Positions 18,908 through 30,968 of a stretch of DNA of 64,000 nucleotides are shown piece by piece. The notes below the pieces were generated by a model. The model did not search any database. It was given only the letters and a program-made list of their open reading frames with translations, and had not been told where the DNA came from. Source of the DNA: Bdellovibrio sp. KM01. GTDB lineage: Bacteria > Bdellovibrionota > Bdellovibrionia > Bdellovibrionales > Bdellovibrionaceae. The stretch is from the NCBI RefSeq assembly GCF_013752535.1, contig NZ_CP058348.1:3224001-3288000 (forward strand). The letters are read 5' to 3'. Made by a program: the position numbers and the translations under genes. Numbering within the stretch: the first letter of the stretch is position 1; the number at the start of each line of letters is the position of its first letter.

Positions 18908-19549
18908 ATGTCCATGACATTTAAAATCCTTATTTCGACTCTTCTTTTGAGCTTTTCATTTTCTGCGTTCGCAGGTGATGAGCTGCAAAATGGTGGCGAC
19001 ATTATCGCTTGCCCTGGTCTTGAAATTCCAGCTTACAGATCTTTGGACCTTTACGAAGGCAAGATGGTTTACAATCTGGAACCTGCATTGATCGACCAAA
19101 ACGATTACCGCGTGATTGTCAGCAAACTGATTGATCGTATTGAAAAATTTGATATCAACCGCGCTAAGCTTTACCGCGTGTTCTTAAAAAACTTTGCATC
19201 TGAAGTGCAAATGATTCCTGGCAGTGAATTCGGCAACGTTAAAGACGAAGGATTTATCACCCTTCCTCAAGGTTGCGAGCTTCAACAAGCTGCCGCACAA
19301 TTTCGCAGACCAACACCAGAAGGCATCAAATATATTTTCAACAGCAACATTTGGTCTAACATGAGCACAATGACTCGTGCTGCTTTGGTATTGCACGAGA
19401 TTGTGTACCGTGAAGCCTTGATGCCTAAAACAGGTCCTGCGACTTCTGCAAAAGTTCGCTATTTCACAGCCTATATTCATTCGTCGAAAATGGTGAATGG
19501 ATCGAGTGCAGATTATGCCAAAGCTAAGGCCTTTGCTGGGTTCAAGTAA
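18908..19549 (+). CDS. Secreted protein of unknown function
   Basis: 213 residues from the ATG at 18908, which has AAGGCGG upstream and starts a clean signal peptide (MTFKILISTLLLSFSFSAFA). The mature part begins GDELQNGGDIIACPG; a conserved-looking C-terminal segment, RAALVLHEIVYREAL, contains His-Glu that could bind metal, though it is not a full HExxH. A longer frame back to 18857 lacks support. The TAA ends exactly one base before the stop of the convergent gene at 19550, with no terminator between. Confidence 0.7.
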   Translation: MSMTFKILISTLLLSFSFSAFAGDELQNGGDIIACPGLEIPAYRSLDLYEGKMVYNLEPALIDQNDYRVIVSKLIDRIEKFDINRAKLYRVFLKNFASEVQMIPGSEFGNVKDEGFITLPQGCELQQAAAQFRRPTPEGIKYIFNSNIWSNMSTMTRAALVLHEIVYREALMPKTGPATSAKVRYFTAYIHSSKMVNGSSADYAKAKAFAGFK

Positions 19550-21685
19550 TCAGTAGCCCCGGAAAAACCAAGGGGTGCTGCTGCATTTAACCAATGTCGA
19601 GCCGGCAGACCCAGCGTTTTTTCCAGTACCCCCTGCGACACTTAGTGTTCCGCTGTAGCTGCCCGTACAATAAATCGCAATACGTCCGCCGCCGCCACCG
19701 CCCCCACGCACCAAACCATTTCCGCCTTTAGAAATAATTCCGTTTGAAACAGAGTTGATGTTTTTTGCCGTGATCCAAATACTTCCGCCAGAACCACCAC
19801 CACAATAATAATCGTTGATTTGATCTCCGCCAGACGCCGAAAGAACTGCTCCAGCGTTGATCGTAAGATTATTGGTAATCACAAACTTAATCGCACCGCC
19901 ACCCGTACCACCTAAGCCATCAGCGACCGTTCCGCAACCACCACCGCCCGAGCCTAAATCCACAGGAGCTGTCGAGGATCCATATGCCGCGCCCCCGGCG
20001 CCACCTTGCCCCGCACCACCGGCTCCGCCATAACCACCACCACCGCCACCGTTCGCATTCGCAATACCTTTTCCGGTACCGGTATTAGCAGCATTACCTT
20101 CATTCGCGGCAACAATGGCGTTACTTGCAAGTGTAATGTTGTTATAGGTGTAAGTTCCATTTTGAATCGAGCTGGTCGTTGGCAACAGCAAATCGTTTGT
20201 CGTAGTATTTATAACCACGGCCGAACCTGGCGTGGCACCGTCTGGCCAACCAGCACTTCCAATTGCCGCAGTAATCGTCAAGGATGTGCTATAAGAAGTT
20301 GTGTAGTAAATTGCAATGCGACCCCCACCACCGACTCCGCCGTAGGCATACGATGCATCCCACGCACCATCGCCGCCATTCGCAGCAATTGTTCCAGAAC
20401 CAGCAACAGAATCAGCGACAATCCAGATACTTCCACCCGATCCGCCACCTGGATAATAGTCGTCGTACCACCACGGATCAGTACCGTTTGAAGTCAAATT
20501 CCCATCGACGGTTAATGTGCCCGTAAGAACCAACTTGATAGCTCCCCCACCTCGGCCCCCTAGTCCATTGCTACTTCCGGTGTTTGCTCCACCCGATCCC
20601 TGATCGGTCGGCTCCAACATGTTGCCATAGGTTGCACCACCTAAAACACCAACATAGGCTCCACGACCGCCATAACCTGCTCCACTCCCATAATAAGTTC
20701 CATTTGTGGTGCCCTTGCCGGTACCAACGCCCGCCTTCGAGCCATGGGCATTATTCCAAAGAGTCACACCACTTGAAATGGTCATGTTACGGAAGTTATA
20801 GGTTCCATTTGAAATCGAGGAGCTTCTGTAAATGAAAAGATCATTGTTCACGTAGTCTATCCAAAAAACTGATCCTTCACTCGCTGTCCAAAATGCCGAA
20901 CTCGTGCCTGGATTGGCCGTCGCATTTCCCGAAAACGTAGTGGTCGCATAATTGATGGAGACTCGGCCGCCACCGCCAGCGCCCTTGGCGTTTGCACTAT
21001 TTGAACCGTTCGCTCGAACCGTCCCCGCCCCAGCAAACACAGCCGCTTTGATCCAAATACTACCACCGGCACCTCCGCCACCTTTGACACCGGCTGCGAC
21101 GGAATCAGTTCCGTTCATCGTGATTGTACCAGCGACCGTCATTGTTCCCGACACATCGAACTTAATAGCTCCTCCGCCGGGCCCCGAGCTTGATTGCATA
21201 CCACCAGGAGACCCTAAAGTTATTGGGGAAACCGGATCACCATATGTCGTACAAAAATCGTAAGTATTATCCAACCCGCCAAAGCCGCCATGACATCCAC
21301 CAGAAGATGCAGTGCCACTGATGGTTCCAGCCCCCGGGCCAGACGTACCGGAGTATCCTTTTCCATCACCAGTAACAGTTCCATTGATAGTCACCGTGTT
21401 AGCAATAATGGTGACGCCTGTGCCAGCCGTCGTATCAGAGAGAACCGTTAAAGTTCGCGAACTGTTCACAATCAGAGTTGAGAATGTATAAGTACCGGGA
21501 TTTAAAGTCACCGCGCCTGTGATCGTCACAATGCCCGAGGAGGTATAGTCGCCGGGTGATTGAGTCACACCTGTCCAGCTGACATCGGCACGTGCGTTTA
21601 CAACGGCAAAGAGCATGGATACGAAAAGCCATGCCTTGAAAGAATATGTATTTGAATAAAACTGCTTTATACTTTCCATACACAT
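19550..21685 (-). CDS. Large secreted glycine-rich repeat protein (beta-helix-like)
   Basis: 711 residues. A signal sequence (AWLFVSMLFAVVNARA) leads to a mature part of at least three long imperfect repeats. Each repeat has short strands (NGTYTYNNITLASNAIV), a Gly/Ala/Ser-rich stretch (GGGGGGYGGAGGAG), a GGGAIK segment, a TLTVDG-type strand, and GGGSGGSIWI followed by GGGGRIAIYY. The periodicity suggests a parallel beta helix or adhesive filament. Start is the ATG at 21685 or the ATG six bases later. It follows the fibre-like gene by 38 bases on the same strand and is probably co-transcribed with it. Confidence 0.75.
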   Translation of the reverse strand: MCMESIKQFYSNTYSFKAWLFVSMLFAVVNARADVSWTGVTQSPGDYTSSGIVTITGAVTLNPGTYTFSTLIVNSSRTLTVLSDTTAGTGVTIIANTVTINGTVTGDGKGYSGTSGPGAGTISGTASSGGCHGGFGGLDNTYDFCTTYGDPVSPITLGSPGGMQSSSGPGGGAIKFDVSGTMTVAGTITMNGTDSVAAGVKGGGGAGGSIWIKAAVFAGAGTVRANGSNSANAKGAGGGGRVSINYATTTFSGNATANPGTSSAFWTASEGSVFWIDYVNNDLFIYRSSSISNGTYNFRNMTISSGVTLWNNAHGSKAGVGTGKGTTNGTYYGSGAGYGGRGAYVGVLGGATYGNMLEPTDQGSGGANTGSSNGLGGRGGGAIKLVLTGTLTVDGNLTSNGTDPWWYDDYYPGGGSGGSIWIVADSVAGSGTIAANGGDGAWDASYAYGGVGGGGRIAIYYTTSYSTSLTITAAIGSAGWPDGATPGSAVVINTTTNDLLLPTTSSIQNGTYTYNNITLASNAIVAANEGNAANTGTGKGIANANGGGGGGYGGAGGAGQGGAGGAAYGSSTAPVDLGSGGGGCGTVADGLGGTGGGAIKFVITNNLTINAGAVLSASGGDQINDYYCGGGSGGSIWITAKNINSVSNGIISKGGNGLVRGGGGGGGRIAIYCTGSYSGTLSVAGGTGKNAGSAGSTLVKCSSTPWFFRGY

Positions 21686-21723
21686 TACGTCCCAATAAGT
21701 TCAAACAATGATTTCGATTTCAA

Positions 21724-24700
21724 TTAGTTCGCGTAACCGCTGCTCCAATTCACATAAACTTTTGTGCCCACACGCATGAACGAGTAAACCGCATTCGCGC
21801 CAGAAGCCGTGGCATTAGCTGGTAAGAAATAAAAGTTTCCAGAACCCGCTGTACCTGACAAAGTATCTGGCGACGTTTGACCAAAGGTACATGATGCCGA
21901 GAATGTCGTCGAAGCCGTGATCGCCAATGTATATACACCACCATCACGCATATTCGAGAACGTCAGTTGCGAACCACAGTTTGTCGTCACGCTTTGAGTA
22001 TTACCACGGCTCCAGTCGATTGTTGTCGTTGTGCCGTTATCGTAAGAAGCACCACGAATCGAACCATTGACTTCAAGCTTGTCATTGGCTGCGGCACCCG
22101 TACCGATACTTACGTTACCATTTGCTGACGCCACTTGAATGCGGTCACTATTACCCGCTCTGATTTTAAAATCGAAAGCATCATTTGTACCGACACTTGC
22201 AGCAGAACCGAACGAGTTACCACCGTTCACCAGAATGCCTGCACCCGTTAGCGTTGTCGCACCTGTACCACCTTTAGCAACTGGAACCACAGATCCAAAG
22301 TTCGCAGGGTCCACACTGATTGTACCCGAGCTTACCGCAAGTCCCGTTCCGACAGTCACCACACCAGCCGTTGAAGTTGTTGCTGCATTTACAGAAACCG
22401 TTGGAGTTGTTGTTCCAGTGATAACGATCGGCAAAGTTCCAGAAACACTGGTCACTCCACCAGTTGCCGCCGCCCATTTCACACCGCCTGCTGCTGAGGT
22501 ATCGACAGTCAGTACCTGACCGTTCGTAGAACTTGCAGGAAGGCGAACGTTGTTAGTGCCGTCAAACACGATCAAATCACCTTTAGCTGACATTGGAGAA
22601 AGTGCATCGAATGCGCCCAGTTTCGTCGAAGCTCCCGTACCGCCGCTTGCGATTGGCAAGACACCCGACAAGGAAGAAGCCACGATATTAGTCAGTAATG
22701 AACCATCGATCGCTGGAAGTTTATTACTTGCTCCCACCGCCACGATTTTGCCTGTTGTTGTTCCCGTATCGACAACCAATGACCCAGAGCTCAATGTTAA
22801 ACCCGCACCATATGATAGACCCAAATCAGAGCCCGTTACATTCAGTGGAGCCGCGGTTCCCAGAGCAGCATATGTCCCCGCACCTGTTCTTTGTACGATA
22901 CCGGTTCCGGTGATCGTGGTGATATCTGTCGCTGTTGGAGAAGCCCACTTGATACCATTTGCCGCTGCCGCATCCACGACCAATACTTGGCCATCGGATG
23001 AACCCACCGCCAAAGACACACTGTTCGTACCGTTATGTGTAACGATCGAACCTTTTGCCGCCAATGGAGAAAGCGCATCAAAGCCGGCAGTCTTAGTAGA
23101 CTGACCCGTACCACCCTTAGTGATCGGTACGACGGCAGTGAAATTTGTAGGATTCACAGCTAAGTTCGCGGCATCGACACTTACTAAACCAGCGGTCACA
23201 GACAAGCCGGAACCCACTTGCATAATACCTTTTGCAGATGTGGATGCATCACCAGGAGCCGTGCCGGTAGCGTCATCCGCCATCACCCAGCTTCCAGATT
23301 GGTATTTCAAAATTTTTCCATCAGCGATACCGGTCGTATCGACTGCAGCACCTTTGATTTTATCAACCGACGTAGCACCCTGTGTGCCGCTGACGTCACC
23401 GGCCAACGAACCAGAGAAGTTCGTTACCGAAGTGGGAGAATTAATCCACTGCAAACCACCGGCTGTCGAAGAAAGAATTTGTCCCGCTGTACCCCGTGCA
23501 ATGCGCACATTGTTTGTACCATCGGAAGTCACCAGATCTCCCGCGGTCGTCAGTGGTGAAAGGGCATCGAAAGCGGCGGTTTTAGAAGACTGACCCGTAC
23601 CACCCTTTGAAATTGGAACCACTGCAGAAAAGTTTGCGGGATTCACCGCCAGATTGGCAGCATCAACGCTCACCAAACCAGCAGTCACGGATAAGCCGGA
23701 TCCAACCTGCATGATACCTTTCGCAGACGTGGAAGCATCACCAGGAGCAGAACCCGTCGCATCGTCAGCCATTGTCCACTTGGTACCATCGTATTTAAGA
23801 ATTTTTCCTGTTGCGATACCAGTTGTATCAACAGTTGCGCCTTTGATTCTATCAACAGAGGTCGCACCTTGTGTGCCGCTTACGTCACCCACCAAAGATC
23901 CGCTGAAATTTGTCGCCGTCGCAGCGCTTGCAGCAACCACACCCGTCAACTGAGAACCATCAACAGCAGGCAATTTTGCAGAGCTATCCAATTGCACGAT
24001 TTGGTTTGCAGCGGTACCCATATTCACTTTGGCCACACCAGACGTGATCGAAATACCTGAAAGTGCCGCACTCGTATCGAATTGCACGATACCTTTGACT
24101 GAGTAAGAAGAATCCACAGGCGAGCCGCCTGTCGCGTCGTCAGCCATCACCCAGTTACCCGATTGATATTTCAAAATTTTACCGTCAGCAATACCCGTAG
24201 TTACGACTGGAGAGCCTTTGATTTTATCTACTGAAGTCGCCCCCTGAGTGCCGCTGACGTCACCAACCAAGGAACCCGTAAAGTTCGTAGCTGAACCTGC
24301 AGTTGTTGCAGAAGAAGCGACAACGCCAGTCAGTTGTGAACCATCCACAGCCGGAAGTTTGTTTCCCGTATCCATCGCCACGATTTTACCCGTCGTCACA
24401 CCCGTGTCGACAACCAAAGAACCCGCACTTGTCGTTAAGCCCGTACCATATGCCAAACCAATACTTGAACCCGTCACATTAATTGGAGCCGTTGTCCCAA
24501 GAGTTGCATAGGTCCCCGCACCCGTTCTTTGCACGATACCTGTACCAGTGACAGTGGTAAGATCCGTTGCAGTGGGCGCAGCCCATTTGATTCCATTAGC
24601 AGCTGCAGAATCCACCATCAACACATGACCGTCCGTGGAGCCTACTGCCAACGCCACGTTGTTAGAGCCGTCATGAGTGATAATGCTGCCTTTCGCCGCC

Positions 24701-26394
24701 AACGGAGAAAGAGCATCAAAGCCTGCTTGTTTCGTCGACTGACCGGTACCGCCCTTATTAATTGGTAAGATACCTGAAAGTGATGCAGCCACGATATTTG
24801 TCAGAGCCGAACCATCCACCGCTGGCAATTTAGCAGTGCCGTCCAATTGAACGATTTGATTTGCTGCTGTACCCGTATTTACTTTCGCCACACCCGCGGC
24901 AACCGTCATACCCGAAACAGCGGCGCTCGTATCGAACTGCACGACACCTTTTGCTGAATAAGATGAATCAGATGGCGAGCCGCCTGTGGCGTCGTCAGCC
25001 ATAGTCCATTTCGTACCATCGTATTTAAGAATTTTTCCAGTCGCGATGCCTGTTGTATCCACAGCTGCGCCCTTGATTTTATCAACGGACGTCGCTCCCT
25101 GCGTACCACTGACGTCACCAACCAACGAACCAGAAAAGTTCGTCGCCGAACCCGCTGTTGTTGCAGACGAAGCAACAACTCCAGTTAATTGCGAACCGTC
25201 CACTGCTGGGAGTTTCCCTGTGCCATCCAATTTAACAATTTGATTTGCACCTGTACCAGTATTGACTGTCGCAACACCTGCCACGACCGTCATTCCCGAT
25301 GTCGCCGCATTCGTATTGAATTGCACAATACCTTTTGCAGAATAAGAGGAGTCCACAACAGTGGAGCCCGTATCGTCATCAGCAAACACCAAAGTACCTG
25401 AAGAGTATTTCAAAACTTTTCCGTTCGCGGCTCCGGTAGTAACAACAGACATACCTTTAACTTTATCAACCGACGTTGCAGATTGAGTTCCGGACACATC
25501 ACCAGTCAAAGAACCCGTGAAGTTTGTAGCCGAGCCCGCCGTCGTAGCCGAAGTCGCTGTCGTCGCGGAAGAGGCCACGATACCCGTTAATTGCGAACCA
25601 TCGATCGCTGGAAGTTTTCCCGTGCCATCCAATTTCACAATTTGATTCGCGCCCGTACCCGTATTTACTTGCGCCACACCGTTTGTAACGACGATACCTG
25701 ATGTCGCTGCATTCGTCAGGAACTGCACCAAGCCTTTGATAGTATAAGAAGCATCCAACGAAGAACCACCACCTGCTGGTGTATCACAAGCAAAGGCAGC
25801 ACCATTGTAAGTCAGAAACTGTCCTGTCGAGCATGTCGATAGATCTGTTTTTCTAACGTAATCAGTTGCTACCAAGCCCCCCAGCTTTTCCGCTGAGACT
25901 GCGTTAGTTGCATAAGGCACAGAACGAATTTCAGAAGCGGGAACAATGTGGTTCCAACCTGCGGTGCCGTTCGGATTGAATTGCACGTCCAGAAATCTTT
26001 TGTCCGAAGCAGATAACAAAAATGTTCCACCCTCAGCACAAGACACTGTGCCGGAGTTATTCATAAACTCATAAACCTTAGACGATGAATTGGGAAAGTT
26101 GGCAGTTCCATTTCCGATAGCGACGTCAAACAACCCGTCCGATGAAATAGGAATCAAATCCGCTTGTTCACGCCACAGTGTACAGTTCGGATTATTGCCA
26201 TGAGATTTATCAACCATGATAGAGAAACTAAAAGAAGCCATCGTGAAGCCTGGACCGCCGCCCGTAGCATTTGTAATACGGCCTTGATAGGAAAAGGTCG
26301 TTGGAGCCGCATGAGCGACTCCAAACGTAAACAGAGACGTGAACAGAATCACGATTCGTATTTTACAGAATCTTGAATTTGTGTAATCTCCCAT
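21724..26394 (-). CDS. Giant phage-fibre-like repeat protein, candidate trimeric adhesin
   Basis: 1556 residues from the ATG at 26394, which has GGAGG six bases upstream and opens a signal peptide ending AHAA; the frame runs on to 26520 without support. After the signal comes a domain starting TFSYQGRITNATGG (about 30-200). Residues about 230-1420 are a mosaic of tail-fibre-type modules: GSLVGDVSGTQGATSVDKIK five times, KLPAVDGSQLTGVV-type six times, GGTGQSTKxxxFDALSPL-type five times, and TGTGIVQRTGAGTY twice. The C-terminal head includes NGNVSIGTGAAANDKLEVNG and a last 70-residue domain ending YVNWSSGYAN. The layout fits the mosaic adhesive trimer class of Bdellovibrio surface fibres; trimerisation and prey binding are inferred. 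Confidence 0.85.
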   Translation of the reverse strand: MGDYTNSRFCKIRIVILFTSLFTFGVAHAAPTTFSYQGRITNATGGGPGFTMASFSFSIMVDKSHGNNPNCTLWREQADLIPISSDGLFDVAIGNGTANFPNSSSKVYEFMNNSGTVSCAEGGTFLLSASDKRFLDVQFNPNGTAGWNHIVPASEIRSVPYATNAVSAEKLGGLVATDYVRKTDLSTCSTGQFLTYNGAAFACDTPAGGGSSLDASYTIKGLVQFLTNAATSGIVVTNGVAQVNTGTGANQIVKLDGTGKLPAIDGSQLTGIVASSATTATSATTAGSATNFTGSLTGDVSGTQSATSVDKVKGMSVVTTGAANGKVLKYSSGTLVFADDDTGSTVVDSSYSAKGIVQFNTNAATSGMTVVAGVATVNTGTGANQIVKLDGTGKLPAVDGSQLTGVVASSATTAGSATNFSGSLVGDVSGTQGATSVDKIKGAAVDTTGIATGKILKYDGTKWTMADDATGGSPSDSSYSAKGVVQFDTSAAVSGMTVAAGVAKVNTGTAANQIVQLDGTAKLPAVDGSALTNIVAASLSGILPINKGGTGQSTKQAGFDALSPLAAKGSIITHDGSNNVALAVGSTDGHVLMVDSAAANGIKWAAPTATDLTTVTGTGIVQRTGAGTYATLGTTAPINVTGSSIGLAYGTGLTTSAGSLVVDTGVTTGKIVAMDTGNKLPAVDGSQLTGVVASSATTAGSATNFTGSLVGDVSGTQGATSVDKIKGSPVVTTGIADGKILKYQSGNWVMADDATGGSPVDSSYSVKGIVQFDTSAALSGISITSGVAKVNMGTAANQIVQLDSSAKLPAVDGSQLTGVVAASAATATNFSGSLVGDVSGTQGATSVDRIKGATVDTTGIATGKILKYDGTKWTMADDATGSAPGDASTSAKGIMQVGSGLSVTAGLVSVDAANLAVNPANFSAVVPISKGGTGQSSKTAAFDALSPLTTAGDLVTSDGTNNVRIARGTAGQILSSTAGGLQWINSPTSVTNFSGSLAGDVSGTQGATSVDKIKGAAVDTTGIADGKILKYQSGSWVMADDATGTAPGDASTSAKGIMQVGSGLSVTAGLVSVDAANLAVNPTNFTAVVPITKGGTGQSTKTAGFDALSPLAAKGSIVTHNGTNSVSLAVGSSDGQVLVVDAAAANGIKWASPTATDITTITGTGIVQRTGAGTYAALGTAAPLNVTGSDLGLSYGAGLTLSSGSLVVDTGTTTGKIVAVGASNKLPAIDGSLLTNIVASSLSGVLPIASGGTGASTKLGAFDALSPMSAKGDLIVFDGTNNVRLPASSTNGQVLTVDTSAAGGVKWAAATGGVTSVSGTLPIVITGTTTPTVSVNAATTSTAGVVTVGTGLAVSSGTISVDPANFGSVVPVAKGGTGATTLTGAGILVNGGNSFGSAASVGTNDAFDFKIRAGNSDRIQVASANGNVSIGTGAAANDKLEVNGSIRGASYDNGTTTTIDWSRGNTQSVTTNCGSQLTFSNMRDGGVYTLAITASTTFSASCTFGQTSPDTLSGTAGSGNFYFLPANATASGANAVYSFMRVGTKVYVNWSSGYAN

Positions 26395-26773
26395 AAACGT
26401 CCTCCACGAACATACCGGAATCGACGATGACTCCGAACTCTTCGGTGAGATTGGTAATTTACTAGAGATTACTCGCAGATAAGTGTTCACAAGAAGAAAA
26501 GGAAACACCTTATGAACCACTCAATATGACCTAGGTCTTGTAGCAGAATGGACCGCCCGGGCTGTTCCATTGTGAAGTTTTAACTAATACAAAGTGAACA
26601 AAGAATCTTATTAAACCAAAAAAAGTGGGAGAATTCTGAATAAAAACATGAGGATTCACGTTCTGATACCGCGTCCCCTATGGAGTCATTCCTAAATAAT
26701 TTTTAGTGGATATTTACTCAAAAATCCTAATTATTTAAACCCGAGGTGGATTTAATTTTGAGACGAATTTGCT
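26395..26773. other. 379-base intergenic region
   Basis: No credible gene. It is AT-rich near 26580-26750 and must contain the promoter of the fibre-like gene and the 3' end of the upstream lipoprotein gene. I found no clear terminator or consensus promoter. Confidence 0.5.
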
Positions 26774-30784: not shown

Positions 30785-30968
30785 CGTGACTCGACAAGGC
30801 CACCAGACTTGGGCACAGCGGCCAGCCGCCTGCCGTGCAGCGACCTCCGTGGGCGCCTGGATGGCGCGCACCCGCCGCAGGCGGGCCACGGCTGAGCCAC
30901 GACGGCGTGTCGCGGAATCGGCAGGCGCAGGCCGATGGGACCAAGGCTGGTGGCCTTGTCGAGTGACC
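30785..30968. repeat. GC-rich structured element with 23-bp terminal inverted repeats
   Basis: 30790-30812 (starts CTCGACAAGGCCACCAG) and 30941-30963 (ends CTGGTGGCCTTGTCGAG) are reverse complements with one mismatch, and pairing extends a few bases further out. Inside are more self-complementary blocks, such as CCCGCC-GCA-GGCGGG at 30880-30894 and GGCCAGCCGCCTGCC with GGCAGGCGCAGGCC. The segment is much richer in GC than everything around it. Frames crossing it are repeat artefacts. Likely a foreign short mobile element or structured RNA. Confidence 0.7.

Follow-up and report, generated by a model that had tools for sequence, protein, structure and literature searches.

It is proposed that the C-terminal tip of the 1556-residue fibre encoded in the window (the whole analysed stretch of 64,000 nucleotides from Bdellovibrio sp. 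KM01) would serve as a dock, and that the secreted protein encoded directly downstream may be an exchangeable adhesin head, a reading by analogy with phage fibres to which we give a probability of about 0.6. It draws on the membership of the fibre in the mosaic adhesive trimer (MAT) family, on a tip module found across the class Bdellovibrionia, on the coupling of this module to secreted genes, on the diversity of these partners, on one fusion and on one replacement of tip and partner as a cassette. From these observations, physical docking, a trimeric state, surface display and prey binding are what we infer.

The positions of the features are collected in Table 1. The fibre gene starts at an ATG (26394–26392) with a good ribosome-binding site; a longer frame beginning with GTG at 26520 would give 1598 aa, and the ATG is better supported. 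The GC content of the gene is 50%, compared with 46% for the window, and scans for promoters and terminators gave results at chance level. The motif TFSYQGRITN stands after the signal peptide; signal peptides were judged by eye, and in the survey described below both ORFs and signal peptides were called by crude scripts. The shaft contains five copies of the GDVSGTQ.ATSVDKIK-type module (three exact), six of the KLPA.DGS.LT..V type (three exact) and five of the GGTG..TK type, and repeated 8-mers number 350 in the fibre versus none in ten shuffles. The preliminary description of this gene had named the 1556-residue frame, the conserved N-terminal domain, these module numbers and a distinct C-terminal tip, all of which were confirmed in the sequence, the tip as a compact domain. 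It had also noticed no intramolecular chaperone at the C-terminus, in agreement with which neither an SDxxxK-type motif (motif scan) nor an S74 match (Pfam search) was found, and had counted the fibre among the longer members of its class, as it proves to be the third longest of eight MATs in its own genome (the longer ones having 1972 and 1846 aa). The tip, which it took to be the last 70 residues, had to be redrawn to about 120 (residues 1435–1556). Searches of Pfam and of PDB sequences with the fibre and with the tip gave nothing passing the cut-off.

Table 1. Positions of the fibre, its parts and the adjoining gene in the window, and of small lipoprotein genes at other loci
Feature	Position	Strand	Evidence
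MAT-family fibre gene, 1556 aa	21724..26394	-	ORF, ribosome-binding site, N-terminal-domain profile (E 2.8e-48)
Ribosome-binding site GGAGG	26401..26405	-	sequence
Signal peptide MGDYTNSRFCKIRIVILFTSLFTFGVAHA, predicted	26308..26394	-	read by eye
MAT N-terminal domain, conserved, residues 30-185	25840..26307	-	profile A4; 99% identity in G012
Mosaic shaft, reshuffled modules	22093..25839	-	sequence repeats, comparison with relatives
C-terminal tip module, ~120 aa, proposed docking domain	21727..22092	-	alignment A1, AF2 model, 64/144 genomes
Partner gene: secreted 711-aa glycine-rich (23% Gly) protein	19550..21685	-	ORF; co-linear in L049, L050, L051
Segment replaced in G012: C-terminal part of fibre and partner gene	19544..23050		left edge sharp at 19544, right edge gradual within shaft
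Small lipoprotein loci	L059:2996-3325, L063:793-1080, L064:2167-2451, L067:8010-8345, L096:1622-1882, L108:9088-9426		

In MAT proteins the signal peptide is followed by a conserved domain of some 130 aa; strain HD100 has 21 of them, 13 with S74 and eight with non-S74 ends, and their single deletions result in weak phenotypes (PMC10769870). The window fibre is matched by a profile (A4) built from 30 N-terminal domains, and because of this match and of the absence of S74 it is, by its sequence, an NS74-type (non-S74) member of the family. This bears out its preliminary assignment to a known class of Bdellovibrio surface fibres, the N-terminal domain being common to MATs (PMC10769870). The same profile finds eight MATs in the window’s genome (G000) and three in G022. 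In the genome G006 (3,782,950 bp), which we take to be that of HD100, ORFs of 1031 and 1151 aa match Bd2133 and Bd1334. Exactly 21 places are found there by the profile, equal to the published number of HD100 MATs (PMC10769870), and the tip class of the window is carried by one of the 21. The species group of G000, G012, G011 and G022 has three to eight MATs per genome as against 21 in G006, with the docking-type tip on half of them (4/8 in G000). As a separate observation, small lipoproteins of 86–112 aa, with a lipobox of GCS[LMF][ED].. or ACSFE.., overlap the start of several MAT genes of the same tip class (Table 1) and are candidates for a surface anchor of MATs; none was found in the window.

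The tip module occurs more than 100 times in the class, in 64 of 144 genomes and 28 of 69 genera, with up to six per genome; its alignment (A1, 58 members) is too diverse to drive pattern scans of contigs. The AlphaFold2 (AF2) model of the tip monomer is confident (pLDDT 88.6). Its nearest folds are predicted phage tail-fibre proteins or their ends (E 6e-7, TM about 0.6), and in the PDB no Foldseek match below 0.001 was obtained. With VIA, the top row was a phage capsid spike (Z 6.9, 6.0 Å, 112 aligned). Further rows comprised the N-terminal domain of CBA120 TSP4 (7rfo; Z 5.7, 3.4 Å, 90 aligned), a T4 baseplate chain in 5iv5, gp10 by its length (Z 5.1, 4.0 Å, 95 aligned), and T4 gp9 (1qex; Z 4.7, 3.5 Å, 91 aligned), all with Z below 8, at which the likeness may mean a mere common arrangement. 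As these phage proteins carry other tail parts, the weak resemblance of the modelled fold to them is taken as a hint only. The solved NS74 tips gave neither a phmmer nor a profile match to the window tip and were not listed by Foldseek or VIA, which is no proof of difference. The peptide in the Bd2133 tip crystal was considered as a precedent for docking and rejected, as this tip (L132) has no evident sequence resemblance and no co-directional neighbour. In a search of contigs with the four closest tips, only a Patescibacteria MAG was found. There, a related tip domain (35%) is carried by a protein whose N-terminus is like that of type IV pilins (L184:5161-6369), and its gene is followed directly by that of a secreted-looking protein of 1677 aa (L184:6372-11405).

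The evidence for coupling comes from a survey in which the surroundings of tip matches were fetched and the gene after each fibre was classified, a direct partner being one on the same strand within 100 bp. The survey covered 57 discovery loci and 40 held-out loci, the latter fetched once the pattern had been noticed, and a direct secreted partner was present in 39 of the former and 25 of the latter. Taken together, 64 of 97 tip fibres are followed by such a gene, compared with 3 of the 36 MATs that have other ends (Fisher 9e-10), a control that is imperfect, since another MAT comes next after 13 of 24 S74 MATs, and that amounts to 3 of 23 when these are left out. With similar C-termini removed, the numbers are 42 of 70 and 3 of 28 (p 5e-6). 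Fibre and partner are separated by −92 to +97 bp, and more than half of the pairs touch or overlap, a spacing expected for translational coupling. The remaining 33 of 97 tip fibres are without a direct secreted partner. Among them are L058, L092 and L094, whose tips are among the nearest to the window tip outside the glycine-rich clade. The fibres of L067 and L093 have neighbours that look like membrane-type proteins by eye, a convergent RCC1-like gene lies near the fibre of L110, and in L063, L070, L108 and L163 a secreted RCC1 protein comes after the fibre with one or two cytosolic genes between. The intervening cytosolic protein of these four loci has 336–377 aa (L070:9316-10449, L063:11647-13244, L108:5426-7019, L163) and appears TPR- and glycosyltransferase-like by eye, the one in L070 being without a Pfam match; its gene is sometimes accompanied by a methyltransferase-like one, and modification of the partner is possible.

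Judged by eye, the partners are exported through Sec or Tat. They reach up to 2045 aa and fall into ten or more unrelated Pfam classes, many being lectin- or propeller-type: LamG, RCC1, NHL, DUF5122/Rax2, Kelch, SBBP, two glycine-rich kinds, PA14 with Big_2, FGE-sulfatase-like, Lcl_C, thrombospondin type 1 and DUF7483. When mapped on a tip tree built from 119 columns, in which many forks are weak, the class of the partner changes at least 27 times, where the minimum is ten and the shuffled mean 38 (0/200 shuffles as low). Being fewer than in shuffles yet above the minimum, these changes indicate that tips and partners are linked and that partners are exchanged. The LamG type and the glycine-rich type of the window track the tip, while RCC1 is scattered; within the genus, the majority of RCC1 genes lie away from such fibres. 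In one locus (L068), the tip is followed within the same ORF by a domain (Lcl_C) homologous to the C-terminus of separate partners. It matches L153_1 (36%, 8e-18), L156_1 (3e-7) and a gene 1.25 kb downstream of the tip fibre L080_5 (8e-16), these three being its only significant matches among the proteins of the loci compared. The fibre of L083 also extends past its tip, by 122 aa with no match. Just past the signal peptide of partners, the motif [AGSPNT]FW occurs in 9 of 33 discovery and 4 of 25 held-out proteins versus 1 of 229 control secreted proteins (p 3.5e-4), and this sole control is apparently the indirect RCC1 partner of L070. The aromatic motif (e.g., GAFWK) is found in partners of unrelated fold, its link to one tip clade is weak (p 0.024), and the window partner is without it. 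Only the strict motif is claimed, because a weight matrix made from the discovery partners performed poorly on the held-out set (AUC 0.62) and was rejected.

In the window, the partner gene starts 38 bp past the fibre stop on the same strand. Its product is a predicted beta-helix with glycine-rich insertions and the C-terminus WFFRGY (model pLDDT 64); neither a Pfam family nor, with this model, a significant fold match was found for it. The nearest relative, G012, is 90–92% identical to the window in the flanks, and its tip has 34% identity to the window tip. Where the window has the glycine-rich gene, G012 encodes two proteins, one of 377 aa that matches no Pfam family and an RCC1 propeller of 772 aa. 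Because G022 and G011 have the pair of fibre and glycine-rich partner at the same place, the replacement of tip and partner probably happened in the lineage of G012. In G035, which belongs to another genus, a tip 71% identical lies at a non-homologous place on a different shaft, and its partner is a glycine-rich protein of 1610 aa overlapping the fibre gene by 25 bp. Relatives of the glycine-rich partner with the FFRGY end also occur on their own, at a distance from all tip fibres, and the window’s own genome has one such relative; as these carry the same end, WFFRGY is no evidence of docking, and its candidacy as a docking motif was rejected. The lone paralogue (L185:8668-10821; G000:C1 about 1324727) is 55% identical, keeps the WFFRGY end and could serve, in trans, a tip fibre that has no partner of its own, for example L055. 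Elsewhere in the window, at 30786–30967, there is a GC-rich intergenic palindromic element with 41-nt arms (85% complementary) and about 18 dispersed copies in the genome, fewer in relatives including G006; it belongs to no Rfam family.

The coupling might also be read in another way. The tip itself could be the receptor-binding domain, and its neighbour an independent surface protein that is merely co-transcribed. We consider this unlikely, though it deserves serious attention, as the solved tip of Bd2439 itself binds glycans (PMC10769870), partner families (glycine-rich, RCC1) are also found alone, and a third of the tip fibres lack a direct partner. However, tight coupling to many unrelated folds is specific to the tip class of the window, a partner-type domain is fused to the tip in L068, and in G012 tip and partner were replaced together. 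The chance that the tip binds prey itself and the partnerless third are the main reasons why our confidence in the dock reading stays near the value given above.

Much less probable is that the neighbour helps the fibre to assemble or acts as its trimerisation chaperone, in the manner of T4 gp38 or Tfa, substituting for the missing S74. Its position directly downstream of an S74-less fibre would fit such a role, and T4 gp38 is such a chaperone (PMC12892980); it is disfavoured because the partners are exported, large and diverse, of unrelated lectin, propeller and glycine-rich classes unlike one conserved chaperone, and the partnerless tip fibres also argue against it. That the locus is of phage origin, as a prophage remnant or tail-fibre cassette, and no surface system of the host is hardly credible: the likeness of the tip model to predicted phage tail-fibre ends is set against the signal peptide and MAT N-terminal domain of the fibre, synteny over four species-level genomes, surrounding loci in which no phage structural genes were noticed on reading, and the search with the four closest tips, which found no viral contig with the tip.

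In the preferred dock-and-head reading, the conserved N-terminal domain would hold the fibre at the cell surface and the repeat shaft would project it outward, as suggested by the family. The C-terminal knob, presumed trimeric, would be the dock for the separately encoded secreted protein, which in the window would be the glycine-rich head touching prey or another surface. The dock would be generic, and heads would be exchanged from lineage to lineage, either singly or in a cassette that includes the tip. It had been suggested that the last 70 residues of the fibre decide its target; as the tip is a common module tied genetically to an exchangeable secreted protein, the choice of target lies, judging from these sequences, more probably in the neighbour gene. 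We see even odds that this extends to a two-part prey contact throughout Bdellovibrionia, with a generic MAT dock and interchangeable heads attached via a short terminal motif, the candidate library of separately encoded heads comprising propellers, lectins, glycine-rich and PA14 domains. If so, the target range would change through the swap of one downstream gene. This bears on how Bdellovibrio recognizes many different prey. If the tip class is a dock, the genes of specificity would be neighbours annotated as RCC1, ‘RTX toxin’ or hypothetical proteins; an earlier paper noted RCC1 repeats in Bdellovibrio proteins that bear the RTX toxin annotation (PMC5941755). In the literature searched (the supplements of PMC10769870 lying outside its scope), we found no study of partner-type neighbour genes as adhesins and no paper linking MATs to downstream partner genes. 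The pairing offers testable protein pairs, e.g., the L064 fibre of HD100 and its NHL-propeller gene.

When compared to the NS74 MATs of HD100 (Bd2133, Bd1334, Bd2439, Bd2734, Bd2740), the window fibre is alike in its signal peptide, conserved N-terminal domain, long mosaic shaft of phage-fibre-like modules and non-S74 tip. It differs in that its tip class has no PDB match by sequence and in its linked secreted partner gene, none being present beside the genes of Bd2133 and Bd1334. The closest functional parallel is provided by the T2/S16 gp37/gp38 system, a trimeric fibre with a separately encoded glycine-rich tip adhesin setting host range. In T2-type phages, gp38 sits on gp37, contacts it by its N-terminus and sets the choice of receptor (PMC12892980). 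What is shared with this system is that the partner is encoded immediately downstream of the fibre. However, no sequence or significant fold similarity of the window partner to gp38 was found, and the partners in Bdellovibrionia are of many unrelated folds and exported by the bacterium. The arrangement of dock and head would thus work like gp37/gp38 rather than belong to that system.
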